Assembly: GCA_022701475.1 (NCBI GenBank) | Contig: JAKOOI010000314.1 | Location: 1 to 11,907 of the forward strand | DNA length: 11,907 bases | Direction: 5' to 3' | DNA from: Weeksellaceae bacterium | GTDB taxonomy: Bacteria; Bacteroidota; Bacteroidia; Flavobacteriales; Weeksellaceae | Part shown: positions 1 to 11,907 of the stretch, in pieces | How positions within the stretch are numbered: position 1 is the first letter of the stretch | How the letters are laid out: each line of letters begins with the position of its first letter | Notes under the pieces: generated by a model | Told to the model about the DNA's origin: nothing | Databases searched by the model: none | What the model saw: the letters and a program-made list of their open reading frames with translations, nothing else | Program-made: the position numbers and the translations under genes

Positions 1-1
1 T

Positions 2-646
2 ATTTTCAGCATTTTCAATCAGCGGCGGAACGAGGGTGGAATTGTAACCAGCCCGGAACGGACGATTTTCGGGGTTCCCTATGCCCAGTTCGTGAAATTT
101 GATTTCGATGTAAGGAAATATTTTAAATTCAGTAATAATACGCTTGTGCTCCGGCAGTTCCTGGGGCTTGGAATACCCTATGGCAATTCATCCAGTATGC
201 CGGTGATCCGTTCCTATTTTAACGGCGGGTCCAATGATATCAGGGCATGGGTAGCGTTCGGCGGGCTTGGACCGTCGGATTCCCAGGTGGATGAAAGAGT
301 GCGTGCTTATCAGACCGAGAATATGAAGCTGACCACCAATATTGAATTCAGGGTTCCGTTCAATTCCATGTACGAAGCGGCTGTGTTTACCGATATCGGA
401 AATACCTGGAGCCTGAAAAATGATAACGAGTCTTCCAGAAACGAATTCAAATTTAACCGCTTTATCAGGCAGATGGGTGTCGGAAGCGGCTTCGGACTGA
501 GGGTGAATGTAGCTTACATCACCCTGAGGGTAGACCTTGCCTATAAAATGTATGATCCGAACAGGCCTGAAGGCGACCGGTGGAGAATCAGGGATTTCCA
601 GCCCTTTAAACCTACGCTCAATATTGCTTTCGGGTATCCTTTCTAA
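2..646 (+). CDS. BamA/TamA-family outer-membrane barrel protein, TamL-like (5' end outside window)
   Basis: This is the C-terminal part of an Omp85-superfamily beta-barrel; the frame is open from base 2, so the start lies upstream. The visible 214 residues hold alternating amphipathic strands. A GGSNDIRAW segment (about bases 224-250) corresponds to the conserved loop-6 G-G-x-x-S/D-I-R motif; the Ala-Trp after the Arg resembles the TamL proteins of Bacteroidota. The protein ends in a terminal Phe (AFGYPF), as expected of a C-terminal barrel signal. Family members insert or translocate proteins at the outer membrane, and TamL is a lipoprotein paired with TamB. The N-terminal lipobox and POTRA domains are not visible, so TamL rather than BamA is inference. 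A methyltransferase gene follows after 17 bp on the same strand. Confidence 0.9.
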   Translation: MFSIFNQRRNEGGIVTSPERTIFGVPYAQFVKFDFDVRKYFKFSNNTLVLRQFLGLGIPYGNSSSMPVIRSYFNGGSNDIRAWVAFGGLGPSDSQVDERVRAYQTENMKLTTNIEFRVPFNSMYEAAVFTDIGNTWSLKNDNESSRNEFKFNRFIRQMGVGSGFGLRVNVAYITLRVDLAYKMYDPNRPEGDRWRIRDFQPFKPTLNIAFGYPF

Positions 647-663
647 AATTAAAAAATATATAC

Positions 664-1380
664 ATGAACGATGTTTGGAAAAATTTCTGGGAGCAGTACG
701 CAGGAGCAGAGGCTGCGAATGAAGATGAGCTGTACCTGAAAGTCGGAAAAATAGCAAACAGTGCGCCGGTAAGCCGGGACGTTGTACAGAAACTGGTTGA
801 TGATGTTGCTGAGAAGCTGGAGCTTACCGATTCGGATACTCTTCTTGAAATGTGCTGTGGCAACGGTCTTATTACCCATCCGCTCTCTGAAAAGGTAAAG
901 AAAATCTATGCGTTTGACTTTACAGAATCACTGATTGCATCCGCACTTCAGCACAGAGCCGGCACCAACATTGAGTACGTAACTGGCAATGCCAAGGAAG
1001 ATTTTACCCGGATATTCGCAGAGCCGCTGCCCGTTGTAAAAAAATTCCTGATCCATGATTCTACCGCCTATTTTCTGCCGGAAGATGTTGAAAAGATGAT
1101 TGAGAAAATTAAAACCGTTTCGGAAGACTTTATGTTTTATCTCACCCACATTCCGAATAATGCCAATAAATGGCTTTTCTACAATACACCGGAGCGGAAG
1201 GAAAAGTATGAAGCTTCCGTTCAGTCCGGTGATATCTTCCTGGGCGGCATCGGCCGGTGGTGGGAAAAGTCGGAATTTACAGCCATTGCCGAAAAGTATC
1301 ACCTTCACCTTGAGATTTTCGACAGCAGCAATGAATATGCTTACCGGATGAGCATTCTCCTTAGTTCCCGTCCCTCGTGA
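664..1380 (+). CDS. Class I SAM-dependent methyltransferase
   Basis: A 238-residue protein with a Rossmann-type SAM-binding core. Motif I is LLEMCCGNGLI (residues 60-70), a variant of the usual D/E-x-G-x-G-x-G. The acidic residue at the end of strand 2 is Asp85 in YAFDFTESLI, and NAKEDF (109-114) fits the next loop. There is no signal peptide or membrane segment, so it is probably cytoplasmic. The substrate cannot be told from the sequence. The ATG at 664 is preceded by an AT-rich leader with no Shine-Dalgarno site, usual for this phylum. It follows the barrel gene by 17 bp and may be co-transcribed with it. Its TGA stop directly abuts the stop of the convergent gene. The family assignment is solid and the role unknown. 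Confidence 0.88.
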   Translation: MNDVWKNFWEQYAGAEAANEDELYLKVGKIANSAPVSRDVVQKLVDDVAEKLELTDSDTLLEMCCGNGLITHPLSEKVKKIYAFDFTESLIASALQHRAGTNIEYVTGNAKEDFTRIFAEPLPVVKKFLIHDSTAYFLPEDVEKMIEKIKTVSEDFMFYLTHIPNNANKWLFYNTPERKEKYEASVQSGDIFLGGIGRWWEKSEFTAIAEKYHLHLEIFDSSNEYAYRMSILLSSRPS

Positions 1381-2415
1381 TCAGTTCCTGTACAACGGGA
1401 AAAAGTTGTTCACCTTTCTCCAGATATCATTGTAAGTAACCAGTTTATTGTACTGGTTGATATCCGTGATATGCTTCCATACGGAAAACTGCAGCCTCAT
1501 TTTGGAAAACCCTGATTTGAAGAGGTACAGGTTGTCATTATCCCTGCCCGCAAACCCGCCGCCGAGATGAAGGAAATGGAGGTTCTTCTTAACGGCCAGC
1601 AGCCTTGCTTCATCAAGCACAAGCTTCATCGGCGCATCTTTTATAAAATCTTCTGCAGTCGTTGCCAGGTGGTACTGCATAACATTTCCCACCACGGTAA
1701 ATATCGCTCCTGCGGCAAAAACACCGTCTTTTTCAACCGATAAAAGAATGACCTCATAATCGTCGTTGTTCAGGAAACCGTGAAAATAATCCTTATCGTA
1801 ATAATACCTGTCGAATGCCCTTACTTTTTCCATCGTTTTATAATACATTTCTATAAACTGATCGAGGTTCTCCGGCTCCTTATTTTCCACTACTACAAAA
1901 TTCTTCTGTCTCAGGTACCTGATTTCATGCTTTGTCGACTTCCTATACCCCTTTAACTGGCTTTCAGATGATTCCGCAAGATCGATGACCACTGTTTTAT
2001 TGAGGGCTGCAACCTCTCCCGAACTGCTGAAAAAACCCCCGTAGTCACATAACGGATGAAGCCTGGAAAATACGGAAACAATATAATGCTTGCTGCAGAA
2101 TTCGGCGAAAGATTCATGAAAAAATGCGAAATGTTCCCGGGAAAGATCCGTAAAATTCCTGTTGGCTATAGGGCCGCAGTATCCGTATACCGAAGTTAGG
2201 TCAAAATAGCCGGTATCTTCAACATTCCTGACCTTAAAAGGAAAAGCAATTATTTCATCCTTCCATTCAGAGACAAAAAGCACAGAAGGAAAAGAGCTTT
2301 CGAGGGAGTGGTAGAAATGGGTGTGGTAAATATCGTAAAAAATACAGGCTTTGATCGTGTTTTCCCAGGCCTGTTTATCGGCAACCTCGATCGTATAAAA
2401 TTTTTTAGGATGCAT
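1381..2415 (-). CDS. FemAB/GNAT-like acyltransferase (Acetyltransf_6 type)
   Basis: A 344-residue protein resembling the FemAB-like GNAT proteins: a strand-rich N-terminal half (SVLFVSEWKDEIIAFPF, residues 44-60, then VYGYCGPI, 76-83), a basic helix LKGYRKSTKHEIRYL (155-169) typical of the family's L-x5-R-x2-I-R region, and a second GNAT-like fold ending in FLHLGGGF (281-288). Members move amino-acyl or acyl groups onto peptidoglycan precursors, lipids or sugars; the donor and acceptor here are unknown. There is no signal peptide, so it is probably cytoplasmic or peripheral at the inner membrane. It is the last gene of the minus-strand cluster, 59 bp after the SanA-like gene. The start (ATG at 2415) is the first Met of the frame. 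Its stop abuts that of the methyltransferase. Confidence 0.85.
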   Translation of the reverse strand: MHPKKFYTIEVADKQAWENTIKACIFYDIYHTHFYHSLESSFPSVLFVSEWKDEIIAFPFKVRNVEDTGYFDLTSVYGYCGPIANRNFTDLSREHFAFFHESFAEFCSKHYIVSVFSRLHPLCDYGGFFSSSGEVAALNKTVVIDLAESSESQLKGYRKSTKHEIRYLRQKNFVVVENKEPENLDQFIEMYYKTMEKVRAFDRYYYDKDYFHGFLNNDDYEVILLSVEKDGVFAAGAIFTVVGNVMQYHLATTAEDFIKDAPMKLVLDEARLLAVKKNLHFLHLGGGFAGRDNDNLYLFKSGFSKMRLQFSVWKHITDINQYNKLVTYNDIWRKVNNFFPLYRN

Positions 2416-2474
2416 AAAGTGACATAAAGTAGTAGTGTTTCATAATAAATTCCTGATGATATCGCAGGATGGTA

Positions 2475-3092
2475 TTAATCCGGCGAAATACCGATGGCCA
2501 TATAGACCACGGCGACGGTTCTTGCCAGGATTTCCCGGAACTGGTTGCGGTAGTAGCTTTCCGGCTTGGTAACGTCCTGCGCATCGAATCCGAGGGCATT
2601 CATATTATTGTTTCTGGCAAAGAGCAATGCCCGGAGATTATGGAATCCCTGGGAGACAATAATCACGTTGTCTTTCTTATAAATATCTTTACAGCGAAGA
2701 ATGCTTTTGTAGGTATTGAAACCTTTCGGGTCTTCCGTGATAATTTCTTCCGGAACCCCTTCCTGGTAGATCAGATAGTTTTTCATGGCAGCCGGCTCAT
2801 CATAGCCTTTGCTCTTTTCTCCGCTGACTATGATTTTTCTGATCCTGCCATGATGATACAGCAATGCAGCAGCGTCCATCCTTTTGGTAAAATACGGATT
2901 GGAGAGCCCCGATCTCATTCTGGGAGAGGTACCGAGCACCAGGGCCACTTCACGGGGCGGGATTTTTGAGATCTTGGTATAGGTACGCCCGCCGGTAAGC
3001 GCAAAAACCCAGGCATTGGCAAGACATATCAACAGAATCCCGATTTCTATCGATATGAATGAAAGGTTGAATATGTTCTTCAGTATTCTCAA
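2475..3092 (-). CDS. SanA/YdcF/ElyC-like DUF218 membrane protein
   Basis: A 205-residue protein with one N-terminal membrane helix (about residues 8-31) followed by a DUF218 domain. Family hallmarks are ALVLGTSP (50-57), a basic/aromatic stretch NPYFTKRMDAAALLY (65-79), KIIVSG (86-91), the acidic EPAAM segment (99-103), NTYKS (126-130) and VIIVSQGFHNLRAL (143-156). Proteins of this group (SanA, ElyC, YdcF) are linked genetically to envelope integrity, vancomycin exclusion and lipid-carrier or peptidoglycan metabolism, but no firm biochemical activity is settled. Topology suggests the soluble domain lies outside the inner membrane. Its ATG overlaps the stop of the ferredoxin-domain frame by 4 bp (ATGA at 3089-3092), indicating translational coupling. 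Length is near that of SanA (about 240 residues). Confidence 0.87.
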   Translation of the reverse strand: MRILKNIFNLSFISIEIGILLICLANAWVFALTGGRTYTKISKIPPREVALVLGTSPRMRSGLSNPYFTKRMDAAALLYHHGRIRKIIVSGEKSKGYDEPAAMKNYLIYQEGVPEEIITEDPKGFNTYKSILRCKDIYKKDNVIIVSQGFHNLRALLFARNNNMNALGFDAQDVTKPESYYRNQFREILARTVAVVYMAIGISPD

Positions 3093-4213
3093 CTAAGATC
3101 AAAGTTAAGCTTTATTTTTTTGCTTTTTGCAACCGACATGCAGGCAAGGATATGCCCTTTTTTTTCTTCTTTTTCCGTGAGGTATTCATTTTCCAGCAGG
3201 TCTACTTCCCCTTCTTCCAGTATACATTCGCAACTGCCGCAGATCCCGGACTTGCAGGAGTACGGAACGGCATATTTCTGTTCCAGCAGCTGCTGCAGAA
3301 TCCTTCCTTCATTGGACGGAAGAACGGTATGGTATTCCTGTCCGAGCATAGTAAATTCCACTTCTACATTTTCGATCTTCGGGAATTCTTTTTCTACGGG
3401 GTAAATATCGTTATTATATTCCTCAAAAAGTTCAAAATGGATATTTTTTTTAGGGATTCCGTGATGGTAACATGCATTAGCCAGTGCCCGGATCATATCT
3501 CCCTTGCCTCAGATCAGCACTTCATCCACAGCGTCCCAGATGGTAGATCCTTCATCGGTATCGTCCAGATGCAGGATCTGATTGATGATGAGGCTCAGTT
3601 TCCGCTCATCCAGCCTTCCCTGAAAAAAGCTGTTGGGTGTTTTTTCACGGGAAAAAAAATAGAAAATCTGCAGCCGGTTGTGGTGGCCTTTTGCCAGCCG
3701 ATCAAGTTCATCCCGGTATATCAGGTCGTCGGAAGTTTTATTTCCGAAAAACAGGAACAGCCTGGTTCTGGGTTCCGTGTGAAGGATATTTTTAAAATGG
3801 CTGAGAATGGGCGTAATCCCTATTCCGGAAGCAAAACCTACAATGGTACGGAACTCACTGGGTTTGGAAACCAGGGTAAACCTTCCGGCAGGCTCACTCA
3901 CCTCTATCTTATCTCCCACAGCATAATTCCTGTACAGCTGTGAAGCCGCTCCTTCCGCGGTGTTCATTTTAATCCCGAGACTGAGCTTGTTTTCATAAGG
4001 TGCAGCGGTAATAGAATAATCCTGAATGAACTGCATATCCCCGGACTGGATTTTAAGACTGACAAACTGTCCGGCTTCAAACCGGAAATTTCCCCTGCAA
4101 TCTTCCGGAATCCCGAGCTCCAGCACGAAAGTATTTTTGGTCAGTTCTTCCTTTTTCGTTATTTTTAACCAGTGAAACGCGGTGAGTTTCCCCTTGTAGA
4201 TTTGTTGTTCCAT
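3089..4213 (-). pseudogene. Ferredoxin reductase with C-terminal 2Fe-2S domain (PaaE/Hmp-like), split by an in-frame TGA
   Basis: Read through the TGA at 3509-3511, this is a 374-residue electron-transfer protein: FAD domain (QDYSI in the R-x-Y-S position, residues about 63-67), NAD(P) domain (ASGIGITP; FFGNKTSDDLIYRDEL), and a plant-type 2Fe-2S ferredoxin domain with CKSGICGSC (C-x4-C-x2-C) and a last Cys in HILACMS. The first frame ends ...DEVLI and the second resumes GKGDMIRALA with no frame change, so the stop sits exactly where the Cys of the family's C-G-x-x-x-M motif belongs; TGC/TGT to TGA is one substitution. As written, the pieces are a 234-residue FAD/NAD protein (4213-3509) and a 135-residue ferredoxin-like piece (3496-3089). 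The latter has an AAGGGAG just before its ATG, so reinitiation is possible. It heads the minus-strand cluster. It could be a real nonsense allele or a sequence error. Confidence 0.82.
4197..4204 (+). promoter_or_regulatory. Candidate -7 element (TAGATTTG) for the thioredoxin operon
   Basis: TAGATTTG matches the Bacteroidota sigma-A -7 consensus TAnnTTTG and lies 40 bp upstream of the thioredoxin ATG, inside the first codons of the divergent reductase gene. I do not see a good -33 TTTG at the usual distance, so this is a weak call based on one box. Confidence 0.35.
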
Positions 4214-4222
4214 ACTTCAATT

Positions 4223-4230
4223 CAAAAATA
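4223..4230 (-). promoter_or_regulatory. Candidate -7 element (TATTTTTG) for the reductase/SanA/FemAB cluster
   Basis: On the minus strand TATTTTTG fits TAnnTTTG and ends 9 bp before the reductase ATG, which would give a very short leader. An imperfect -33 match (TTTC) lies about 18 bp further upstream, within the start of the thioredoxin gene. The 31-bp space between the divergent genes leaves little room for anything else. Confidence 0.35.
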
Positions 4231-4244
4231 GATAAAAAATAATT

Positions 4245-4793
4245 ATGAGAAAGATAATTTTGTCGATGCTGATCATAGGCTCCGTCATTAGCTGCAAAAA
4301 GCAAAGTCAGGAATTGTCAGACAGCCGGCCGGTGACGGATTCGGCAACAGCCACAGTTGCGGTTCCTGCTGCCCTTACTACCCTCAGTCCCCGGCAGGCG
4401 TCTGAAATCCTCGGTAAAAAGAACGACACGCTGTATGTTACCAATTTCTTTGCCACATGGTGCGGACCCTGCGTAAAAGAGATCCCGCATTTCAAAAGCA
4501 AAATCCAGGAACTGAGCGGGAAGCCTGTAAAGATTACTTTTGTAAGTGTAGACAGCAAGCAGGACTGGGAAACCAAAGTGCCGGCATTTGTAGACGAACA
4601 GGGAATACGGAAGAATACGGTATTGCTGGACGGCCAGGCACTGGACGGGCAGTTCTTTGCGTCCAACTTTAAAAAATGGGACGGAAGCGCCATTCCTTTT
4701 ACTTATATGAGAAAAGGAGATCAGACCGATGAGACCCTCGGAATGATCAGTGAAGAGCAGCTTACTTCAAAGATCAATTCATTTTTAAAATAA
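4245..4793 (+). CDS. TlpA-like thioredoxin-fold lipoprotein
   Basis: A 182-residue predicted lipoprotein: positively charged start, hydrophobic core and lipobox ending VISC, with Cys17 as the lipidated residue. The following residues (KKQSQE) lack the acidic cluster of Bacteroidota surface-export signals, so a periplasm-facing anchor is likelier. After a Ser/Thr/Ala-rich linker (about 20-50) comes a thioredoxin fold with the redox site FATWCGPC (69-76) and the expected cis-Pro at Pro151 (AIPFTY). Relatives reduce or isomerise disulfides outside the cytoplasm, for example for cytochrome c or stress-related substrates; the partner here is unknown. It diverges from the reductase across 31 bp and is followed after 23 bp by an ABC permease, suggesting one transcript. 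The ATG at 4245 is supported by the intact signal peptide. Confidence 0.9.
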   Translation: MRKIILSMLIIGSVISCKKQSQELSDSRPVTDSATATVAVPAALTTLSPRQASEILGKKNDTLYVTNFFATWCGPCVKEIPHFKSKIQELSGKPVKITFVSVDSKQDWETKVPAFVDEQGIRKNTVLLDGQALDGQFFASNFKKWDGSAIPFTYMRKGDQTDETLGMISEEQLTSKINSFLK

Positions 4794-4816
4794 GCGCCTG
4801 CCTTTCAGCTGATCTG

Positions 4817-5788
4817 ATGTCTAAAAAATTTAAAATCCTGTGCCTGTTTTTACTGATTGCTATTTTCGCAGCCGCAGCTGTTAATGCAGACACGGGATTT
4901 TTGTATCTGAGCCCTGAGGATTTCTTCGGCGATTCCCCCCGCAGCCAGATTGCTGAGATCCGTGTAAACCGTATACTGGTTATGCTTCTGGCGGGAGTTT
5001 CCATCCCTACGTCAGGATTCCTCATGCAGGAATATTTCCGTAACCCGCTGGCGGGCCCTGATATTCTTGGCATTACCTCGGTCGCAAGCCTCTCGGTCGC
5101 TTTTTATATATTTTTTTCCCATGATCTTCTGATTCCTGATTTTCTGCAGAACAGCTTTCTCAGCCTCTCCTCCATAGCCGGTGGCCTTTTGCTGATGCTG
5201 GTCCTCTTATCCGTATCGGGGAAATTCCAGGATAAATCCTATCTCGTGATATTCGGTTTTCTGGTTTCCGCATTTGCAGGAGCCATTGTTTCGCTGCTCC
5301 AGTTCTACGCAGAAAACCAGAGCCTGAAAAATTATGTGTTATGGTCTTTCGGAGCCAACAATATGGTCACCAGAGACCAGATTTATGTGCTGGCAGCCCT
5401 TATCATTGGAGGAATGGCTGTCTGCTTTCATACGATAAAACCTCTGATCGGGAATGCATTGGGAACTGCCTATGCACAGAGCTTTGGGGTTAATCCGGGC
5501 CGGCTGAAAATGGGTATTATCATCGCTTCTTCCCTGCTGTCGGCCTCAGTAACGGCCTTTATGGGCCCTGTCCTGTTTATAGGAATCATTGTTCCCCATT
5601 TCTGCAGACTGATCTACAACCCCTCCAGATTATGGCAACAATGGATGCTGAACATGGGCCTGGGAATGCTGGTCATGCTGATTTTCTCCACGATCGCTGA
5701 AAAAACGCAGATCCCGCTCAATGTCATCAGTTCGGTATTCGGTATTCCGGTGATCCTGGTCATGCTGCTGAAACAGAACAAAGCGTAA
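4817..5788 (+). CDS. FecCD/BtuC-family ABC transporter permease (siderophore, haem or cobalamin type)
   Basis: A 323-residue polytopic inner-membrane protein. It carries the family's conserved segments: RVNRILVMLLAGVSIPTSG (residues 49-67), MQEYFRNPLAGPDILGI (70-86), SVTAFMGPVLFIGIIVPHFCRL (about 244-265) and IPLNVISSVFGIPVILVML (299-317). The second and third match the Q-x-x-F-R-N-P-L-A-x-P and GP-FIG-x-x-x-PH-x-x-R-L signatures of the permease that contacts the ATPase. Length is near the usual 320-350. Such permeases import iron-siderophores, haem or vitamin B12 from the periplasm; substrate cannot be assigned, as no binding protein or TonB receptor is adjacent. Its ATPase follows after 110 bp. 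Confidence 0.92.
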   Translation: MSKKFKILCLFLLIAIFAAAAVNADTGFLYLSPEDFFGDSPRSQIAEIRVNRILVMLLAGVSIPTSGFLMQEYFRNPLAGPDILGITSVASLSVAFYIFFSHDLLIPDFLQNSFLSLSSIAGGLLLMLVLLSVSGKFQDKSYLVIFGFLVSAFAGAIVSLLQFYAENQSLKNYVLWSFGANNMVTRDQIYVLAALIIGGMAVCFHTIKPLIGNALGTAYAQSFGVNPGRLKMGIIIASSLLSASVTAFMGPVLFIGIIVPHFCRLIYNPSRLWQQWMLNMGLGMLVMLIFSTIAEKTQIPLNVISSVFGIPVILVMLLKQNKA

Positions 5789-5854
5789 TATCCTGTAATA
5801 CCGGCTTCAAGAGACATCAGGTTTCAGGCATCAGTAAAGTATGGTAAAAAGCAG

Positions 5855-5862
5855 TATATTTG
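5855..5862 (+). promoter_or_regulatory. Candidate -7 element (TATATTTG) before the ABC ATPase
   Basis: TATATTTG is a full match to TAnnTTTG in the 110-bp gap between permease and ATPase, 36 bp before the ATPase ATG. No clear -33 TTTG is present about 19 bp upstream. It suggests the ATPase may have its own promoter besides read-through from the permease. Confidence 0.35.
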
Positions 5863-5898
5863 TGAGTACAGTTCAAGCATTGTCTATACGATACTTTC

Positions 5899-6821
5899 AT
5901 GCACCTACAGATAAAACAGGCAGATATCGGTTACCACCAGCCCCTGATTTCAAATGCGGAAGCAAGCCTGAAATCGGGTGAAGTCTGTCTGCTGATCGGA
6001 AACAACGGAGTGGGGAAAACAACCCTCATTAAATCATTACTTCATCAGGTTCCTTTGCTGAACGGCGAAATCCTGCTCGGAGGCCGTTCCGTTACAGAGT
6101 TTTCCGCAAGGGAAATCGCGGAGCATATCGCTGTAGTCTACTCAAAATCTGTGCTTCCCCGGCACCATACGGTGGAAGACCTTATTGCACTGGGAAAATA
6201 TATTTATTACCCTTATTATTTCGAGCTTAAAAGAAAGGACCGGGAGGAAATCAGCCATACGATAGATATGCTGGGAATGGACCGATACAGGCATACCTCG
6301 CTTATAAATCTTTCAGACGGGAACCTGCAGAAAGCTTTTATCGGAAGAGCAATTACCCAGAACTCCCAGTTATCATTCTGGATGAGCCGACCACCCATCT
6401 GGATGAAGAAAACAAAATCAATATCCTGCAAACCCTTCGCAGGCTGGCACATGAACAGAACAAAATTATCCTGTTCTCTTCCCATGACTGGCGGCTGGCA
6501 AAAGAATTTGCCGATAAGATATGGTACATAAAGGAAGGCCGGCTGTATCCAGGAATGGTAGAAGATATATTGGTTCAGCACGGTGAGCTTACCCGCGCTT
6601 CTTTATTTCGCATCAGTGAACATTTTAAAGCTCCTGTGATTGAAGCTCCGCAAATCCATAAGGAAATGCTGTTCTCCCTTTTGCAGAAAAGCTTTCCTCG
6701 GGATCTCACCGGATTTCATTTTATTTACAAGAATAGCCGTTGGGTAATCAATACTGATGAAATCTATGAAGAATGTGGATCTTTTGAGGAAATCTTTACT
6801 TTTATGAAAAAACTTCATTAA
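5899..6821 (+). pseudogene. FecE/BtuD-like ABC transporter ATPase, frameshifted before Walker B
   Basis: The ATPase partner of the FecCD-type permease. Walker A is GNNGVGKTT (residues 34-42). The Q-loop region reads AVVYSKS with no Gln, and the signature is LSDGNLQK rather than LSGGQ, a form I associate with Bacteroidota iron-type ABC ATPases. After codon CAG at 6367-6369 the frame fails; from 6372 the next frame gives IILDEPTTHLDEENK (Walker B and D-loop), then FSSHDW (H-loop), and runs to the TAA at 6819-6821. One missing base near 6370-6372 (for example TTAATC read as TTATC) restores a 307-residue protein. As written, translation ends at 6531 in a nonsense tail of about 50 residues, without the catalytic Glu. 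I see no slippery heptamer, so programmed frameshifting is unlikely. Either a sequence error or true inactivation. Confidence 0.88.
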
Positions 6822-6847
6822 CAAAGGGTTTTCATTATTTATTCAAT

Positions 6848-6867
6848 ATACTATGCATGCATAGTAT
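6848..6867. promoter_or_regulatory. Perfect 20-bp palindrome, candidate distal MarR operator
   Basis: ATACTATGCATGCATAGTAT is its own reverse complement over 20 bp. It differs at one base from the palindrome at 6929-6952, and the centres are 83 bp apart (about eight helical turns). MarR proteins bind AT-rich palindromes of this size, and marR starts 119 bp downstream. That this is its operator is inference. Confidence 0.65.
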
Positions 6868-6928
6868 TATGCTTATCATACATTTTAACCTTGTATATTT
6901 CAATCGATTAACAAATTTTAACGCAAAT

Positions 6929-6952
6929 AAATACTATGCATGCATAATATTT
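6929..6952. promoter_or_regulatory. 24-bp near-perfect palindrome, candidate proximal MarR operator
   Basis: The core TATGCATGCATA is flanked by matching arms to 24 bp with one mismatched pair (C6934/A6947). It ends 2 bp before a TATATTTG -7 element, so a bound dimer would cover the region between the -33 and -7 elements and should block RNA polymerase. This fits autorepression of marR and control of the fad genes downstream. Confidence 0.7.
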
Positions 6953-6954
6953 GC

Positions 6955-6962
6955 TATATTTG
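6955..6962 (+). promoter_or_regulatory. Candidate -7 element (TATATTTG) of the marR-fad promoter
   Basis: A full TAnnTTTG match 24 bp before the marR ATG at 6987, immediately after the proximal palindrome. The -33 position (about 6932) falls inside that palindrome and has no clear TTTG, so this would be a weak or activator-independent, operator-gated promoter. Confidence 0.5.
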
Positions 6963-6986
6963 GTTAAACCATTGAAGCAAAAAGTG

Positions 6987-7433
6987 ATGGATCATAAAGA
7001 CAAAATAGAAAATGTAGACTTAATCCTAAAACAGACCTGGCTGGCGGTATCCAAGATGTATACCGAAATGGCTCAGGAACATGACTCTACTGCAGTTCAG
7101 GCCCTTACTTTACTCAAAATAGATCCAAAGGAAGGAACCAGGAGTACCAATCTGGGACCCAAAATGGCCATTGAGCCTACTTCACTCACCAGGATTATCA
7201 AGCTGCTGGAAGATAACGGATATATCTATAAGGAGAAAACCACCACCGATAAGCGTGAGGTAATCATCAAGCTTACCGATAAAGGATTAAACTCCAGGAA
7301 TATGTCTAAAGAAGTGGTGGTGAATTTCAACAAACGCGTGATGGAAAAAATTGCTCCTGACAAACTGGAAACCTTCAAGGAAGTAATGCATGAGATCATG
7401 AAAATTGCTACGGATCTGAACTACCGGAAATAA
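6987..7433 (+). CDS. MarR-family transcriptional regulator of the fad locus
   Basis: A 148-residue winged-helix regulator. The DNA-binding domain spans roughly residues 35-105: the recognition helix lies in IEPTSLTRIIKLLEDNGYI (62-80) and the wing in DKREVIIKLTDKG (88-100), with the conserved Asp-Lys-Arg of MarR wings. Terminal helices (8-30 and 118-145) would form the dimer. I chose ATG 6987 over an in-frame TTG at 6951, because the latter lies inside the operator and promoter and would add a non-conserved stretch. Two palindromes upstream suggest autorepression. fadN follows after 69 bp with no promoter visible, so it is probably co-transcribed. By position the ligand may be a fatty acid or acyl-CoA; that is inference. 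Confidence 0.9.
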   Translation: MDHKDKIENVDLILKQTWLAVSKMYTEMAQEHDSTAVQALTLLKIDPKEGTRSTNLGPKMAIEPTSLTRIIKLLEDNGYIYKEKTTTDKREVIIKLTDKGLNSRNMSKEVVVNFNKRVMEKIAPDKLETFKEVMHEIMKIATDLNYRK

Positions 7434-7446
7434 ACAATGCATGAAA

Positions 7447-7467
7447 CCGGCCGATCCTCATGGCCGG
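7447..7467 (+). other. GC-rich hairpin in the marR-fadN spacer
   Basis: CCGGCC (7447-7452) pairs with GGCCGG (7462-7467) around a 9-nt loop in an otherwise AT-rich 69-bp spacer. No T-run follows, so it is not a standard intrinsic terminator. It could tune mRNA stability or the marR/fadN ratio. Confidence 0.45.
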
Positions 7468-7502
7468 ATTACATCAGACCAATAATAAAATAAATAAATC
7501 CA

Positions 7503-9896
7503 ATGAAAAGAAGAATCAAACACGTCACCGTTCTTGGTTCAGGAATTATGGGAAGCGGTATCGCAGCGCACTTTGCCAATATCGGCGTACAGGTGTCGCT
7601 CCTGGATATCGTACCCTTTGAGCTGACAGAAGCGGAACAGAAAAAAGGTTTGACAAAAGAAGATAAGGCCGTAAGAAACAGGATTGCTGCCGAAAATTTT
7701 GAAAAGCTGAAAAAAGCAAGCCCTGCCCTGCTCTATTCTCCAAAGTTTGCCGACAGGATCACGACCGGAAATTTCGAAGACGATCTGCCGAAAATCAAAA
7801 ATACCGACTGGATCATCGAAGTGGTCGTAGAAAAGCTGGACATTAAAAAATCCGTTTACGAAAAAATAGAACAGTTCAGAAAGCCCGGAACCCTCATTTC
7901 CTCCAATACATCAGGAATCCCGATTCACTTTTTAACAGAAGGCAGAAGCGAAGATTTCAGACAGTATTTTGCAGGAACCCATTTCTTCAATCCGGTACGT
8001 TATCTTCCTTTGCTGGAAATTATACCGACGCGAGATACCCTTCCGGAAGTTATTGACTTTTACATGGATTACGGGGCAAAATTTCTCGGTAAAACCACGG
8101 TCCTCGCAAAAGATACCCCTGCTTTTATCGCCAACAGGATTGGGGTATTCTCTATGATGGATCTTCTTCATCATGTTCAGAAACTGGGACTTACGGTTTC
8201 CGATGTCGATAAACTGACCGGACCGGTCATCGGACGGCCAAAATCCGCTACCTTCCGTACAGCCGATGTCGTAGGACTCGACACCTTGGTGATGGTGGCC
8301 AACGGCGTAAGACAGAGCGGTGCCGAAGCCAACAATTTTAACGATGTCTTCACCCTTCCGGAATATATCCGGAAAATGGTGGATAATAAGTGGTTAGGCT
8401 CAAAGACCCAGCAGGGATTTTATAAAAAGGTGAAAAATGCGGAGGGCAAATCCGAAATACACGGATTGAACCTGCAGACCCTGGAATATGAACTTCAGGG
8501 AAAATCCTCCTTCCCTACGCTTGAACTGACCAAAAACATAGATAAACCGATTGACCGTTTCAAAGTGCTGATCGGAGGAAAGGATAAAGCAGGTGAACTG
8601 TACAGAAAATCTTTAGGAGCCCTGTTTGCCTACGTTTCGCATAAAGTACCTGAAATTTCCGATGAAGTCTATAAAATAGACGATGCGATGAAAGCCGGAT
8701 TCGGATGGGAAAACGGCCCGTTTGAAATCTGGGATGCCGTTGGCGTACCGAAAGGTATTGAACTGGCACAGGACGCCGGCTATGAAGTATCGGACTGGGT
8801 AAAAAATGTGGACGCTTTTTATAAAGTTAATGAGGAAGGTCAAAGTATTTACGTGGATAAAAATTCAGGTGAGTATAATACGATTCCGGGACAGGACGCT
8901 TTCATTATTTTAGACAACATCAGAAAAAACAAGACTTTGTGGAGCAATTCCGGGGCTGCCATTGAAGATGTGGGTGACGGAATTATCAATTTTGAGATCC
9001 GCTCGAAAATGAATTCCCTTGGCGGCGAAGTGCTTGACGGGCTGAACCGGGCCATTGACCTGGCGGAAAAAGAATACGACGGACTCGTTATCGGCAACCA
9101 GGGGACCAATTTCTCAGTAGGAGCCAACCTGGCCATGATCCTGATGATGGCCATTGAACAGGACTGGGATGATCTGAATATGGCCATTGCTTATTTCCAG
9201 AAATCCATGATGAGGGTTCGCTATTCCTCAATTCCTGTAGTCGTTGCTCCGCACGGAATGACGCTGGGCGGCGGCTGTGAAATGACCATGCATGCGGACC
9301 GTGTGGTGGCGGCGGCAGAAACCTATATCGGACTGGTAGAAACCGGAGTCGGTGTTATTCCCGGCGGCGGCGGAACCAAGGAACTGACGCTGAGAACTTC
9401 CAGGGAATTCCATAATGACGACGTAAAGAACAACAGGCTCCGCGATGCATTCATGAATATTGCCATGGGTAAAGTAGCTACTTCTGCTTATGAAGCCTAT
9501 GACATGGGAATCCTCGAGCACGGAAAAGACATTGTTTCGGTAGATAAAAGAACCCAGGTTAAAACCGCTAAAATGCTGGCCAAAAGCCTTGCCGAACACG
9601 GCTATACCCAACCGGTCGAACAGAAAGTAAAAGTACTGGGGAAAGATGCCCTTGGAATGTTCTATGTTGGTACCGACCAGATGCTTACCGGAAACTATAT
9701 CTCTGAACACGACAAGAAAATCGCCGATAAATTAGCCAACGTCATGGTAGGCGGAAACCTTTCTGAACCTACTGTGGTTACCGAACAGTATCTCCTGAAT
9801 CTTGAAAGGGAAACCTTCCTGCAGCTCTGCGGGGAAAGGAAAACACTGGAACGGATTCAGTACATGTTGCAGAACGGGAAGCCGTTAAGGAATTAA
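7503..9896 (+). CDS. fadN: 3-hydroxyacyl-CoA dehydrogenase / enoyl-CoA hydratase (FadN-type)
   Basis: A 797-residue bifunctional beta-oxidation enzyme with the dehydrogenase at the N-terminus and hydratase at the C-terminus, the order of Bacillus FadN and the reverse of E. coli FadB. The NAD-binding motif is GSGIMGSGIA (residues 12-21). The dehydrogenase catalytic pair is His160 (THFFNP) and Glu172 (LLEII), with DTPAFIANR (204-212) leading into the C-terminal helical domain. The hydratase part (about 490-700) has GTNFSVGANL (534-543), GGGCEM with Glu593, and GLVETGVGVIPGGGG with Glu613, the two catalytic acids. It hydrates 2-enoyl-CoA and oxidises the L-3-hydroxyacyl-CoA with NAD+ in the cytoplasm. 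Length is close to FadN (about 790). It lies 69 bp after marR and 643 bp before fadA, the gap being filled by a transposase element. Confidence 0.95.
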   Translation: MKRRIKHVTVLGSGIMGSGIAAHFANIGVQVSLLDIVPFELTEAEQKKGLTKEDKAVRNRIAAENFEKLKKASPALLYSPKFADRITTGNFEDDLPKIKNTDWIIEVVVEKLDIKKSVYEKIEQFRKPGTLISSNTSGIPIHFLTEGRSEDFRQYFAGTHFFNPVRYLPLLEIIPTRDTLPEVIDFYMDYGAKFLGKTTVLAKDTPAFIANRIGVFSMMDLLHHVQKLGLTVSDVDKLTGPVIGRPKSATFRTADVVGLDTLVMVANGVRQSGAEANNFNDVFTLPEYIRKMVDNKWLGSKTQQGFYKKVKNAEGKSEIHGLNLQTLEYELQGKSSFPTLELTKNIDKPIDRFKVLIGGKDKAGELYRKSLGALFAYVSHKVPEISDEVYKIDDAMKAGFGWENGPFEIWDAVGVPKGIELAQDAGYEVSDWVKNVDAFYKVNEEGQSIYVDKNSGEYNTIPGQDAFIILDNIRKNKTLWSNSGAAIEDVGDGIINFEIRSKMNSLGGEVLDGLNRAIDLAEKEYDGLVIGNQGTNFSVGANLAMILMMAIEQDWDDLNMAIAYFQKSMMRVRYSSIPVVVAPHGMTLGGGCEMTMHADRVVAAAETYIGLVETGVGVIPGGGGTKELTLRTSREFHNDDVKNNRLRDAFMNIAMGKVATSAYEAYDMGILEHGKDIVSVDKRTQVKTAKMLAKSLAEHGYTQPVEQKVKVLGKDALGMFYVGTDQMLTGNYISEHDKKIADKLANVMVGGNLSEPTVVTEQYLLNLERETFLQLCGERKTLERIQYMLQNGKPLRN

Positions 9897-9901
9897 TAAA
9901 A

Positions 9902-9925
9902 GCTCCGTAGGAGCATTCTGATAAT
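9902..9925 (+). repeat. REP-like hairpin A (left outer) with tail
   Basis: GCTCC-GTA-GGAGC is a 5-bp stem with a GTA loop (9902-9914), followed by ATT and CTGATAAT. It begins 6 bp after the fadN stop. It matches, inverted, the hairpin at 10453-10465 and shares loop and tail layout with the other three copies. Confidence 0.8.
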
Positions 9926-9950
9926 AGCAAAATAAATATTGTTAAAACAA

Positions 9951-9974
9951 GCCTCGTAGAGGCGACCTGTTAAT
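9951..9974 (+). repeat. REP-like hairpin B (left inner) with tail
   Basis: GCCTC-GTA-GAGGC (9951-9963), then GAC and CTGTTAAT. Compared with hairpin A, two stem positions are changed and both partners change with them. The tail ends 4 bp before the transposase ATG. Confidence 0.8.
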
Positions 9975-9978
9975 TATT

Positions 9979-10446
9979 ATGGCAAATACTTATACACAAA
10001 TCTATATTCAGATCGTGTTTGCGGTAAAAGGACGGCAAAATCTGATTTCAAAAGAAAATAGGGAAGAGCTGCATAGGTACATTACAGGTATAGTGTCCAA
10101 CAGAAAGCAAAAGTTATTTGCTGTATTTGCAATGCCTGATCATATCCATTTGCTAATAAGTATAAACCCCAATGTTTCTGTTTCAGATCTTGTAAGGGAT
10201 ATTAAAGCGGGTACATCAAAATTCATTAACGAAAAAAAATGGATTAATGGAAAGTTTAACTGGCAGGAAGGCTACGGTGCATTTTCTTATTCCAGAAGCA
10301 GTGTAGATGCAGTAATAAAATACATTTTAAATCAGGAAGAGCATCATACAAAGAAAACATTCAGGGAAGAATATCTGGAGTTTATGGAAAAATTTGAGAT
10401 TGCCTATGACCCAAAGTATGTATTTGAATGGATGGACGATCACTAA
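9979..10446 (+). CDS. IS200-like Y1 transposase (REP-associated tyrosine transposase type)
   Basis: A 155-residue HUH single-strand transposase. The HUH motif is His55-Ile-His57 in MPDHIHLLI (residues 52-60); the nucleophile is Tyr115 in VIKYILNQEEH, with the usual following Gln119. GYGAFSYSRSS (98-108) is the family's segment before the catalytic helix. Length is normal for this group and the frame is intact, so it may be active. Enzymes of this family cut and join single-stranded DNA at hairpins; RAYTs are linked to dispersal of REP palindromes, and four REP-like hairpins surround this gene. Its codons look more AT-rich than fadN or fadA, consistent with separate origin. It has no accessory TnpB. 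Assignment to RAYT rather than ordinary IS200 rests on the flanking repeats. Confidence 0.9.
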   Translation: MANTYTQIYIQIVFAVKGRQNLISKENREELHRYITGIVSNRKQKLFAVFAMPDHIHLLISINPNVSVSDLVRDIKAGTSKFINEKKWINGKFNWQEGYGAFSYSRSSVDAVIKYILNQEEHHTKKTFREEYLEFMEKFEIAYDPKYVFEWMDDH

Positions 10447-10465
10447 CAGGCCGCTCCTACGGAGC
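10443..10465 (-). repeat. REP-like hairpin A' (right inner), inverted
   Basis: GCTCC-TAC-GGAGC (10453-10465) is the exact reverse complement of the left outer hairpin. On the minus strand it is followed by GGC and CTGTTAG, the tail shared with the other copies. The tail overlaps the transposase TAA at 10444-10446. Confidence 0.8.
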
Positions 10466-10491
10466 TTGCTGCAAAACATGAAATAATAGCT

Positions 10492-10516
10492 ATGAACAGT
10501 TTACCTCTACGAGGTA
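10492..10516 (-). repeat. REP-like hairpin B' (right outer), inverted
   Basis: TACCTC-TAC-GAGGTA (10502-10516) is the B-type hairpin inverted, with a G-C pair replaced by A-T and the stem extended to 6 bp. On the minus strand it is followed by the CTGTTCAT tail. It lies 23 bp before the fadA ATG. Confidence 0.75.
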
Positions 10517-10539
10517 TAAAAATTTTAATAATAAAACAT

Positions 10540-11718
10540 ATGAAAACAGCATATATCGTTAAAGGATTCAGAACAGCCGTCGGGAAAGCCCCGAAGGGAA
10601 GCCTTAGATTCACCCGTCCGGATGTGATGGCCGCTACCGTGATTGAAAAACTCATGGCCGAGCTCCCACAACTGGACAAAAACAGGATTGATGACCTGAT
10701 CGTAGGCAATGCCATGCCCGAAGCCGAGCAGGGACTGAATGTTGCCCGGCTGATTTCCCTGATGGGACTGAATACCGATAAGGTTCCGGGTGTTACGGTC
10801 AACAGGTACTGTGCGTCCGGAAGCGAGGCCATTGCCATTGCTTCTGCAAAGATCCAGGCCGGAATGGCCGACTGTATTATTGCCGGCGGCACCGAATCGA
10901 TGTCGTACATCCCGATGGGAGGCTACAAGCCGGTGCCGGAAACCCGGATCGCCAAAACCAATCCTGACTATTACTGGGGGATGGGATACACCGCGGAAGA
11001 AGTGGCCAAGCAATACGGGATCACCCGTGAGGAGCAGGACCAGTTTGCCTTTGAATCTCACCAGAAAGCATTGCAGGCCAATGCGGAAGGAAGATTTGCC
11101 GGTCAGATTGTTCCGGTTCCGGTTGAATACAACTTTCTGGATGAAAACCAAAAGATGCAGACTAAAAAGTTTGATTTTTCTGTGGATGAAGGCCCCAGGG
11201 CTGACACTTCACTGGAAGGGCTGGCGAAACTGAAGCCTGTTTTTGCCAACGGAGGCAGCGTAACGGCGGGAAACTCTTCCCAGATGAGCGACGGGGCTGC
11301 ATTCGTCATGGTCATGAGCGAAGAAATGGTAAATGAGCTGGGACTGAAGCCTGAAGCCAGGCTGGTTTCCTATGCGGCAGCCGGACTGGAGCCACGGATC
11401 ATGGGAATGGGCCCGTTATATGCCATTCCGAAAGCCTTGAAACAGGCCGGACTGGAGCTGAAGGACATCGAACTGATTGAAATGAATGAAGCGTTTGCTT
11501 CCCAGTCCGTAGCCATCAAAAAAGAACTGGACCTCAATCCTGATATCCTGAACGTTAACGGGGGAGCCATTGCACTGGGCCATCCGCTGGGATGTACCGG
11601 AACAAAACTGACCGTTCAGCTGCTGGATGAAATGAGAAAACGGGGCAACAAATACGGAATGGTCACCATGTGCGTAGGTACAGGACAGGGTGCAGCCAGT
11701 GTGTTTGAATTACTTTAA
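10540..11718 (+). CDS. fadA: Acetyl-CoA C-acyltransferase (3-ketoacyl-CoA thiolase)
   Basis: A 392-residue thiolase, full length for the family. The nucleophile is Cys91 (VNRYCASGSEAI); the second active-site set is His348 (ALGHPLGCTG) and Cys378 (CVGTGQG), and NEAFA is present near residue 330. It cleaves 3-ketoacyl-CoA with CoA to give acetyl-CoA and a shortened acyl-CoA, the last step of beta-oxidation, acting after FadN. I chose ATG 10540 over an in-frame ATG at 10492: the thiolase fold starts at MKTAYIVKGFRTAVGK, and the upstream stretch is REP hairpin sequence. No promoter is evident between the transposase and this gene, so it may depend on read-through from fadN across the element. 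Confidence 0.95.
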   Translation: MKTAYIVKGFRTAVGKAPKGSLRFTRPDVMAATVIEKLMAELPQLDKNRIDDLIVGNAMPEAEQGLNVARLISLMGLNTDKVPGVTVNRYCASGSEAIAIASAKIQAGMADCIIAGGTESMSYIPMGGYKPVPETRIAKTNPDYYWGMGYTAEEVAKQYGITREEQDQFAFESHQKALQANAEGRFAGQIVPVPVEYNFLDENQKMQTKKFDFSVDEGPRADTSLEGLAKLKPVFANGGSVTAGNSSQMSDGAAFVMVMSEEMVNELGLKPEARLVSYAAAGLEPRIMGMGPLYAIPKALKQAGLELKDIELIEMNEAFASQSVAIKKELDLNPDILNVNGGAIALGHPLGCTGTKLTVQLLDEMRKRGNKYGMVTMCVGTGQGAASVFELL

Positions 11719-11907
11719 AAATAATAAGGTGACAGACAAATAGATAAGAAAGTAGAACTGACAGATAAAATTTAATTGCAGACACAGATAGCATCAGCTT
11801 ATTATCAGAACTATTTATCTGATGCGGATCGTGAGAATTTAAAAAATTGCAGAGTTTCAGAAAGCGATAACAGGCTTTTAAAACACATGACATCAGCAAT
11901 AAACTAT
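11719..11907. other. Region downstream of fadA with no convincing gene
   Basis: This AT-rich stretch shows an imperfect direct repeat TGACAGAYAAA (11730-11740 and 11759-11769) and a 7-bp inverted repeat GCATCAG/CTGATGC (11791-11797 and 11819-11825) with a 21-nt loop and no T-run. A plus-strand frame is open from 11776 to the window end, with an ATG at 11887, but 44 codons without a stop is not strong evidence and I recognise no protein family in it. No terminator is clear. Confidence 0.4.

Follow-up and report, generated by a model that had tools for sequence, protein, structure and literature searches.

What kind of system is formed by a small transposase gene and the hairpins that tightly bracket it? 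The question is raised by contig JAKOOI010000314.1 of a Weeksellaceae bacterium (GenBank assembly GCA_022701475.1), analyzed here over positions 1 to 11,907, a stretch of 11,907 bases that as a whole is called the window below. The gene, tnpA, is located at 9979..10446 on the + strand and codes for a Y1 (HuH) transposase of 155 amino acids (PF01797; motifs DHIH, WQ and YILNQEEHH). The initial annotation had taken its product for a REP-associated tyrosine transposase (RAYT) and the hairpins for repetitive extragenic palindromic (REP) sequences. We favor a different reading, to which we assign a probability of about 0.7, namely a domesticated, vertically kept IS200-like single-strand transposase (TnpA_Y1 subclass 1.2) that has a strand-directed family of mini-elements of its own. 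Its direct support comes from the anatomy of these mini-elements (cassettes from here on), the asymmetry between their left-end (LE) and right-end (RE) hairpins, a 3' boundary at one locus, their dispersal, a bias in strand in some of the genomes tested and their conservation across phyla.

Direct reading of the sequence confirmed four hairpins where they had been annotated, all with GTA loops and with stems of 5–6 bp. Two of them are on the + strand upstream of tnpA. The LE-type hairpin (9902..9926; stem 9902-9914, GCTCC-GTA-GGAGC) has the tail ATT-CTGATAATAGC, given as ATT-CTGATAATAG when the whole feature is delimited, and the RE-type hairpin (9951..9971; stem 9951-9963, GCCTC-GTA-GAGGC) begins 49 nucleotides (nt) after it and has the tail GAC-CTGTT within GAC-CTGTTAAT, which stops 4 nt short of the tnpA ATG (9979). 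The other two are on the - strand. The downstream RE-type hairpin (10445..10465; stem 10465-10453, GCTCC-GTA-GGAGC) has the tail GGC-CTGTT (read as GGC-CTGTTAG), overlapping the tnpA stop codon (10444-10446), and the downstream LE-type hairpin (10490..10516; stem 10515-10503, ACCTC-GTA-GAGGT, with one extra T-A pair outside it) has the tail AAA-CTGTTCATAGC, with the feature tail given as AAA-CTGTTCATAG. The pattern CGTAGN7CTG matched the 11,907 bases four times, exactly at these hairpins, when 0.07 matches were expected from shuffles (none of 200 shuffles gave four). All four stems form when both flanks are folded as single-stranded DNA, and the whole-flank folds beat shuffled sequences only moderately (z -2.2 and -1.4, equaled by 5 and 17 of 200 shuffles). 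The layout is that of two direct hairpin pairs facing each other across tnpA. The order A-B then A'-B' that had been described stands for the stem sequences, but by tail type the order is LE-RE then RE'-LE'.

The hairpins of each pair share direction and are mostly 49–51 nt apart, the first (LE) followed by N3-CTGTTAATAG and the last (RE) by GAC or GGC and then CTGTT, and at tnpA the arrangement is LE-RE, gene, RE-LE. Among dispersed Chryseobacterium hairpins, counted after collapsing near-identical contexts, the TAG tail was found on 36 of 39 first hairpins, 12 of 14 internal ones, 7 of 41 last ones and 16 of 43 solo ones. Conservation 3' of the last hairpin fades inside CTGTTAAT. To the left of the first hairpin only the purine-A directly before it is conserved, and the base at -1 of the RE hairpin was A in 79 of 79 entries of LE-RE pairs. 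The cassette measures about 70–75 nt, with repeat units of 49/51 nt; its right end was mapped at one locus (see below) and its left end is set only by the loss of sequence conservation. Palindromes of the same polarity near both ends, a conserved end oligonucleotide and the lack of coding sequence are all features of palindrome-associated transposable elements (PATEs), and all three are present here. Neither the loop nor the exact tail that the initial annotation had proposed as the recognition unit could be maintained. Loops in relatives include ATC, AGC, AGA, GGA, GTTA and GTCA in place of GTA, and because they vary so freely, GTAG read across the loop (GTA plus G) was also rejected as a RAYT guide. 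Tails are lineage-specific, with CTGTTAATAG in Chryseobacterium, ATCTTTGTAG in Verrucomicrobia records and ATCATAATAG and ATATCTGTAG in others, so that CTGTTAAT is not a general tail, and its AAT belongs to the host at the one comparable site.

Evidence that hairpins and gene belong together comes from the relatives of tnpA. From at least 525 loci in named genomes we took the best 80, of which 78 had enough flank (L073 and L074, with short flanks, were left out, and L067, whose frame is broken, was included by assuming a length for the gene). The hairpin rule, set after seeing these 80 loci, asked for C as the second stem base, a C-G pair closing the loop, a loop of 3–4 nt and at least three G/C. 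An earlier rule with weak tails gave no strand discrimination (upstream 70 versus 66 of 78), which led to the adoption of the TAG tail. Hairpins were present on both sides of tnpA at 71 of the 78 loci (40/40 in the Chryseobacterium group and 31/38 in the others), a result reached by 2 of 1560 mononucleotide shuffles, and TAG-tailed LE hairpins pointed inward rather than lying on the other strand in 53 versus 3 cases upstream and 36 versus 6 downstream. An LE hairpin with a second one 44–60 nt further on was found upstream at 45 loci, downstream at 32 and on both sides at 20, so that the full set of four hairpins seen in the window recurs often, though not everywhere. As these loci had shaped the rule, we tried it on a second set of 28 loci from a phylum-wide draw, 27 of them usable (L376, with a broken open reading frame (ORF), was left out). 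This set excludes the window (L348) and a genus member (L349) and contains one locus, L353, with the same sequence as L062 of the first. Here hairpins were found on both sides at 18 of 27 loci (17 of 26 without L353) and in none of 1350 shuffles, and LE tails were inward in 9 versus 0 cases upstream and 8 versus 0 downstream. That related transposases keep their hairpin flanks, as had been predicted, is thus borne out in both sets. The records with tnpA relatives and flanking hairpins are titled Bacteroidota, Verrucomicrobia, KSB1 and Acidobacteria. In 13 genomes with loci of the Verrucomicrobia type, the LE pattern with the ATCTTTGTAG tail was found in 11, up to 14 times including the copies at tnpA loci, with controls at 0. 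Within the phylum of the window, 70 of 296 sampled genomes have a tnpA relative at E <= 1e-45.

Compensated changes in the stems had also been noticed, and they are real. With MAFFT, i.e., without building the alignment on pairing, we aligned the downstream (RE) flank of the window with those of 40 out of 77 loci (41 in total); the 40 were chosen by eye, with a bias toward loci whose hairpin adjoins the stop codon. In this alignment 99.0% of the stem cells pair, and 10 cells are altered on both sides, against a shuffled mean of 1.9 (0 of 500 shuffles reach 10). When the partner was slid along the alignment, pairing fell to 43–64% and there was no double change. Only two of the five stem pairs carry the double-sided changes, a value attained in 35 of the 500 shuffles, and pair types were no more numerous than in shuffles (2 versus a shuffled mean of 3.0).

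Copies of the hairpins are also found far from tnpA. The permissive pattern CGTAGN7CTGTT gave several matches per genome over the genus and its control did likewise, and for that reason a stem-specific strict pattern was used instead. The genome to which the window belongs had 14 pattern matches versus one for the reversed control (10 versus 0 in the strict form), while in 118 members of the genus the strict pattern gave 301 matches in 73 genomes, between 0 and 18 per genome, with no match of the reversed control. The hairpins are therefore above chance elsewhere in the genome, as the initial annotation expected. Only 15 of 95 strict matches (60 dispersed loci were fetched) were within an ORF of at least 100 amino acids, compared to 2301 of 3000 random points, i.e., the dispersed LE-RE cassettes are mostly intergenic. 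The expected link between copies and transposase held in part. Off-locus copies, sorted by eye into locus and off-locus and with totals recounted after removing the matches at tnpA loci, were present in 36 of 48 genomes with an ortholog of the kind found in the window, next to fadB and fadA; in 11 of 15 that have just a more distant or a broken relative (broken or partial genes in G033, G041, G042 and G051); and in 14 of 55 with neither, meaning no relative of at least 50% identity. The difference between the ortholog and neither groups has a Fisher p of 6e-7, uncorrected for relatedness, and there was none between the ortholog and distant/broken groups. Several genomes without a close ortholog are rich in copies (G075 with 13, G053 with 9 and G026 with 7), and the link of the hairpins to tnpA is accordingly not strict.

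Were this flavobacterial system a classical REP/RAYT one (TnpA_REP, class 2), a single Y1 transposase gene in a stable place would be expected, with short palindromes on either side of it that recur as intergenic repeats, and in outline this is what is seen. The class of the protein points elsewhere. Its score against Pfam PF01797 was 93.5 bits (cut-off 23), and its Y1_Tnp domain has the HuH motif and the one catalytic tyrosine of Y1/HuH single-strand transposases. Among NCBIfam models it scored 74.4 with IS200/IS605 (cut-off 55) and 38.5 with REP_Tyr_transpos (cut-off 80). The solved chains that scored best were of IS200-kind transposases (2xm3 and kin, E 2e-7), which we take to be ISDra2 TnpA. 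In a comparison of 43 sequences H55, W95, Q96, Y115, Q119 and H123 were invariant and D54 and H57 nearly so; the strict signature Y..[NK]Q..HH plus DH[IVL]H was found at 65 of the 80 loci of the first set and 16 of the 27 of the second. RAYTs have Y...NP where tnpA has YILNQEEHH, a motif of the Y...Q..HH kind, and the GT[AG]G (GTAG or GTGG) expected at the 5' foot of REP hairpins is absent from the feet of the listed cassettes, so the RAYT identity had to be abandoned. Subclass 1.2 of TnpA_Y1 is characterized by DH[IV]H, WQ and Y...Q..HH (Quentin et al., 2018; PMC6006769), and with these motifs and a length close to the approximately 148 amino acids of the subclass, the tnpA product would be a member of it, near IS200. 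The entry for subclass 1.2 in the table of that paper gives REP as "no"; the absence of associated REPs, which does not hold here, is a reported property of the subclass and not part of its definition. The arrangement of the copies also differs from that of REPs. Among adjacent hairpins within 160 nt at the 60 dispersed loci, 60 were on the same strand and 14 on opposite ones, so that the inverted doublets of REPINs and BIMEs are not the rule, although opposite neighbors exist, and copy numbers are low, REPs being usually present in more than 100 copies per genome (PMC2817692). Taken with the motif, the sub-threshold score and the missing foot, this makes the classical system distinctly unlikely. 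Cassettes of opposite orientation were also seen close together with no transposase gene between them (L219, L220, L205 and L014).

Could tnpA be an ordinary IS200/IS605 insertion sequence, with LE and RE flanking the gene and the whole moving together? The solved chains mentioned above, the LE/RE-kind hairpins and the strand preference described below all fit. Against this, the ends of IS200 lie on one strand, and the hairpins that flank tnpA here are on opposite strands across the gene. The position of the gene is also fixed. In the window its left neighbor is a fadB/fadJ-type gene (3-hydroxyacyl-CoA dehydrogenase plus enoyl-CoA hydratase; 7503..9896, + strand) and its right neighbor a thiolase (fadA-type) gene (10540..11718, + strand), and among the nearest 42 named loci this fadB-fadA placement is common to 36 of the 41 flanks compared upstream and 37 of the 42 compared downstream, which speaks for the vertical descent of a domesticated gene. 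The genome itself is a fragmented Chryseobacterium-like assembly (a label judged from the relatives of tnpA) of 3.09 Mb in 602 contigs and 73% complete. A search of this incomplete genome for the tnpA family gave three matches, the window gene, a gene on contig C92 and a partial one, and no near-identical second copy was among them. Instead of several near-identical copies with tnpA inside one LE-RE element we thus find a single gene between two cassettes, and we consider an ordinary insertion sequence a most improbable explanation. The C92 gene is full-length (L001, 1489-1935), has 41–42% identity to the window gene, and its motif, YIKNQKEHH, is the printed consensus of subclass 1.2. It stands directly after carA, and palindromes downstream of it, e.g., of the CATAGGTTTCACCTATG type, resemble another family.

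We also looked at genomes without tnpA at this place. Of 30, 28 gave a locus, and the fadB end was within 400 nt upstream in seven. These gaps could not be aligned by eye to the insertion flanks and were discarded as empty sites; no clean empty site with both ends was found among them. In the remaining 21 of the 28 Chryseobacterium genomes lacking the ortholog between fadB and fadA, a search of the 400 nt before the thiolase gene did not reveal the end of fadB, and several of the loci without tnpA (L160, L171, L173, L179 and others of L158-L185) have an apparent other small ORF there.

The hairpins sometimes also stand in arrays. One genome has 16 hairpins at exact 51-nt steps, and contig C344 of the genome to which the window belongs has a hairpin array of 49- and 51-nt units (a Flavo-1 RNA, RF01705, 71.6 bits, is located shortly before it, at L008 1176-1259 on the - strand). 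In G075 hairpin pairs recur at steps of about 345–366 bp (L229 and L231), indicating that a larger tandem repeat carries the cassette. Such exact periods and larger repeats of about 350 bp around hairpins, together with copies in genomes without an ortholog, are what would be seen if the arrays had spread by slippage and recombination only, with tnpA a passenger caught between two of them. The relatives of tnpA in Bacteroidota, Verrucomicrobia, KSB1 and Acidobacteria records keep flanking hairpins with lineage-specific tails, however, and such a tie across phyla is not expected of a passenger, so we regard this explanation as very unlikely.

The right boundary could be mapped in the gap between pyrB and carA. 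We compared the 30 best-matching loci of 60 genomes having the gene, with the families of the neighbors checked (pyrB-type carbamoyltransferase and carA). The search expression found hairpins in 16 of the 30 species, from 1 to at least 7 per occupied gap, and none in 14 (in one of these, L273, a hairpin with another tail was seen by eye). At 10 of the 16 occupied loci the last tail, which reads CTGTT or CTGAT (in two of them GTGTT), is immediately followed by the host string AATA..GAAA(A)TCTAA, and this string is also present at 7 of the 14 others. The right end of the cassette is thus CTG[AT]T, and the AAT that follows it at this site is host sequence. Palindromes of the GGGTGAAACCC type are mixed with the CTGTT-type hairpins in these arrays of relatives; in the genome of the window there are only two (control 0).

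The dispersed cassettes show a preference for one strand in part of the genomes tested. Four genomes were chosen for having many dispersed sites on long contigs. In each of them the skew was sampled in 20 segments of 20 kb, and once the matches at tnpA loci had been removed, the others were assigned by eye to 29 sites (in G026 a site on another contig was left out and one near the skew change was scored as a misfit). The G-rich strand carried 13 of 13 sites in G095, 7 of 7 in G075, 2 of 4 in G094 and 3 of 5 in G026, a total of 25/29 (p 1e-4, orthologous sites not being independent), and in G095 the points of strand switch are the sign changes of the GC skew. If the G-rich strand is taken as the sequence of the leading strand, the hairpins would be presented on the lagging-strand template. 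This is the target reported for IS608 and ISDra2 (PMC6006769). The use of dnaA as origin marker was rejected because the GC skew changes sign elsewhere in G095, G075 and G094, three genomes in which the replication origin may be away from dnaA.

Hairpins in these positions may instead act in RNA, as terminators or as mRNA-stability or attenuator hairpins kept for regulation and merely resembling transposon ends. Of the strict matches with an ORF on each side, 64 of 89 lie between ORFs running in the direction of the hairpin, several sites are kept in place across species, and in the window hairpins adjoin tnpA at its start as well as at its stop. Nevertheless, there is no T run 3' on the hairpin strand (terminator-like matches were on the opposite strand only, 2 versus a shuffled mean of 0.6), a search of four sources gave no Rfam family matching the hairpins at its gathering score, and species differ in how many hairpins a single gap contains (0 to at least 7). 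The conserved CTGTT end and the cross-phylum tie to tnpA would also be left unexplained. As the whole explanation an RNA-level function is unlikely, although it may be a secondary role.

We return to the domesticated IS200-like transposase with its own cassettes. The basic cassette would be LE hairpin-N3-CTGTTAATAG-spacer-RE hairpin-GAC-CTGTT, with both hairpins in the same orientation and about 50 nt apart. TnpA would bind a hairpin and its 3' tail in single-stranded DNA, chiefly on the lagging-strand template, cut directly 3' of CTGTT and then join the ends. A unit of ~50 nt (AATAGC...hairpin-GACCTGTT) could in this manner be gained or lost beside an existing CTGTT tail; repeated gain would produce the 49/51-nt arrays, and insertion at other sites the dispersed pairs. 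The gene would stay between its two facing cassettes and seldom move along with them, mobilization in trans through a single-stranded circle being a predicted PATE-like property. We infer the action of TnpA on the hairpins, the position of the cut, the single-stranded intermediate and the gain of units one by one. A bolder and only tentative possibility is that TnpA of subclass 1.2 is an array-building single-strand integrase, adding and removing ~50-nt hairpin units 3' of CTGTT on the lagging-strand template, so that the hairpin would be both product and landing site and the lineage tail a built-in address. If true, it would be a third partnership of hairpins and Y1 enzymes beside IS200 ends and REP/RAYT, present in Bacteroidota (with Ignavibacteria), Verrucomicrobiota and others.

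A number of observations weigh against the reading that we favor. Judged by our rule, 7 of the 78 loci in the first set and 9 of the 27 in the second have no hairpin on one side or on both, and the 7 of 41 last hairpins already mentioned carry the tail of an LE. Cassette copies are few per genome, numerous copies occur in some genomes that lack a close ortholog (G075, G053 and G026), and the genomes compared for copies and tnpA are related rather than independent. Facing cassettes without tnpA (L219 and L220) show that such an inverted arrangement also occurs away from the gene, and the fadB-fadA gaps gave no clean empty site. The boundary was mapped for the 3' end only, at one locus and between diverged species, the strand sample is of four genomes with two poor fits (G094 and G026), and arrays may also lengthen by replication slippage or recombination.

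Among known systems the closest is subclass 1.2 itself, as described in the same paper (PMC6006769), with which the DH[IV]H, WQ and Y...Q..HH motifs, the size of about 150 amino acids, the presence in Bacteroidetes and the low copy number are shared; it is published as having no REPs, in contrast to the flanking hairpins and dispersed copies found here. With the ends of IS200/IS605 and the PATEs of Haloquadratum the cassettes share being non-coding, the two near-terminal palindromes, the absence of terminal inverted repeats and a short conserved end oligonucleotide, and in the PATE of HqIRS46 the near-terminal palindromes are a direct repeat (PMC3119063). The differences from both are the small cassette with its 49/51-nt units and the position of the transposase, which is placed between two facing cassettes rather than within a single one. 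REPtrons, REPs and REPINs (PMC6006769, PMC8266576, PMC3116915) likewise have a single-copy Y1 gene flanked by its own repeats and extragenic hairpins; among these reports are the cutting of CT beside the hairpin by E. coli TnpA_REP, and, for SBW25, tandem REP arrays whose orientation is opposite on the two sides of the genome. Here, by contrast, there is no GT[AG]G foot, the doublets are direct, the LE/RE tails are ordered, the transposase is of another class and the copies are few. TIRYTs and TIRtrons (PMC3733652) are also Y1 genes with non-GTAG flanking repeats, but theirs are long terminal inverted repeats, many with GGGGWSAS, instead of hairpins with CTGTT-type tails. The best reading is that the cassettes are built like IS200 ends and not like REPINs.

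Searches of the open-access literature found repeats of this sort described neither for subclass 1.2 nor for Chryseobacterium, and a search with the letters of the hairpins gave one unrelated paper only. A 2024 paper on Chryseobacterium resistance genes names "RayT" genes and, in the part of it at hand, does not mention flanking hairpins (PMC11194056). The cassettes are likely the cognate DNA substrate of a widespread transposase subclass published as having none. The system joins two known kinds, the domesticated single-copy gene as in RAYTs and the ordered ends of IS200, and brings the question of how IS200 enzymes came to keep repeats within reach of direct tests with short oligonucleotides. 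Our reading would also account for one group of hairpin repeats that stand between genes in Bacteroidota and neighboring phyla.

Elsewhere in the window, the ORF of an ABC-transporter ATPase next to an FecCD permease (5899-6531 and 6555-6821) seems to be frame-broken after GRAITQNSQL, a stretch that looks conserved, and may be either a pseudogene or the result of an assembly error.
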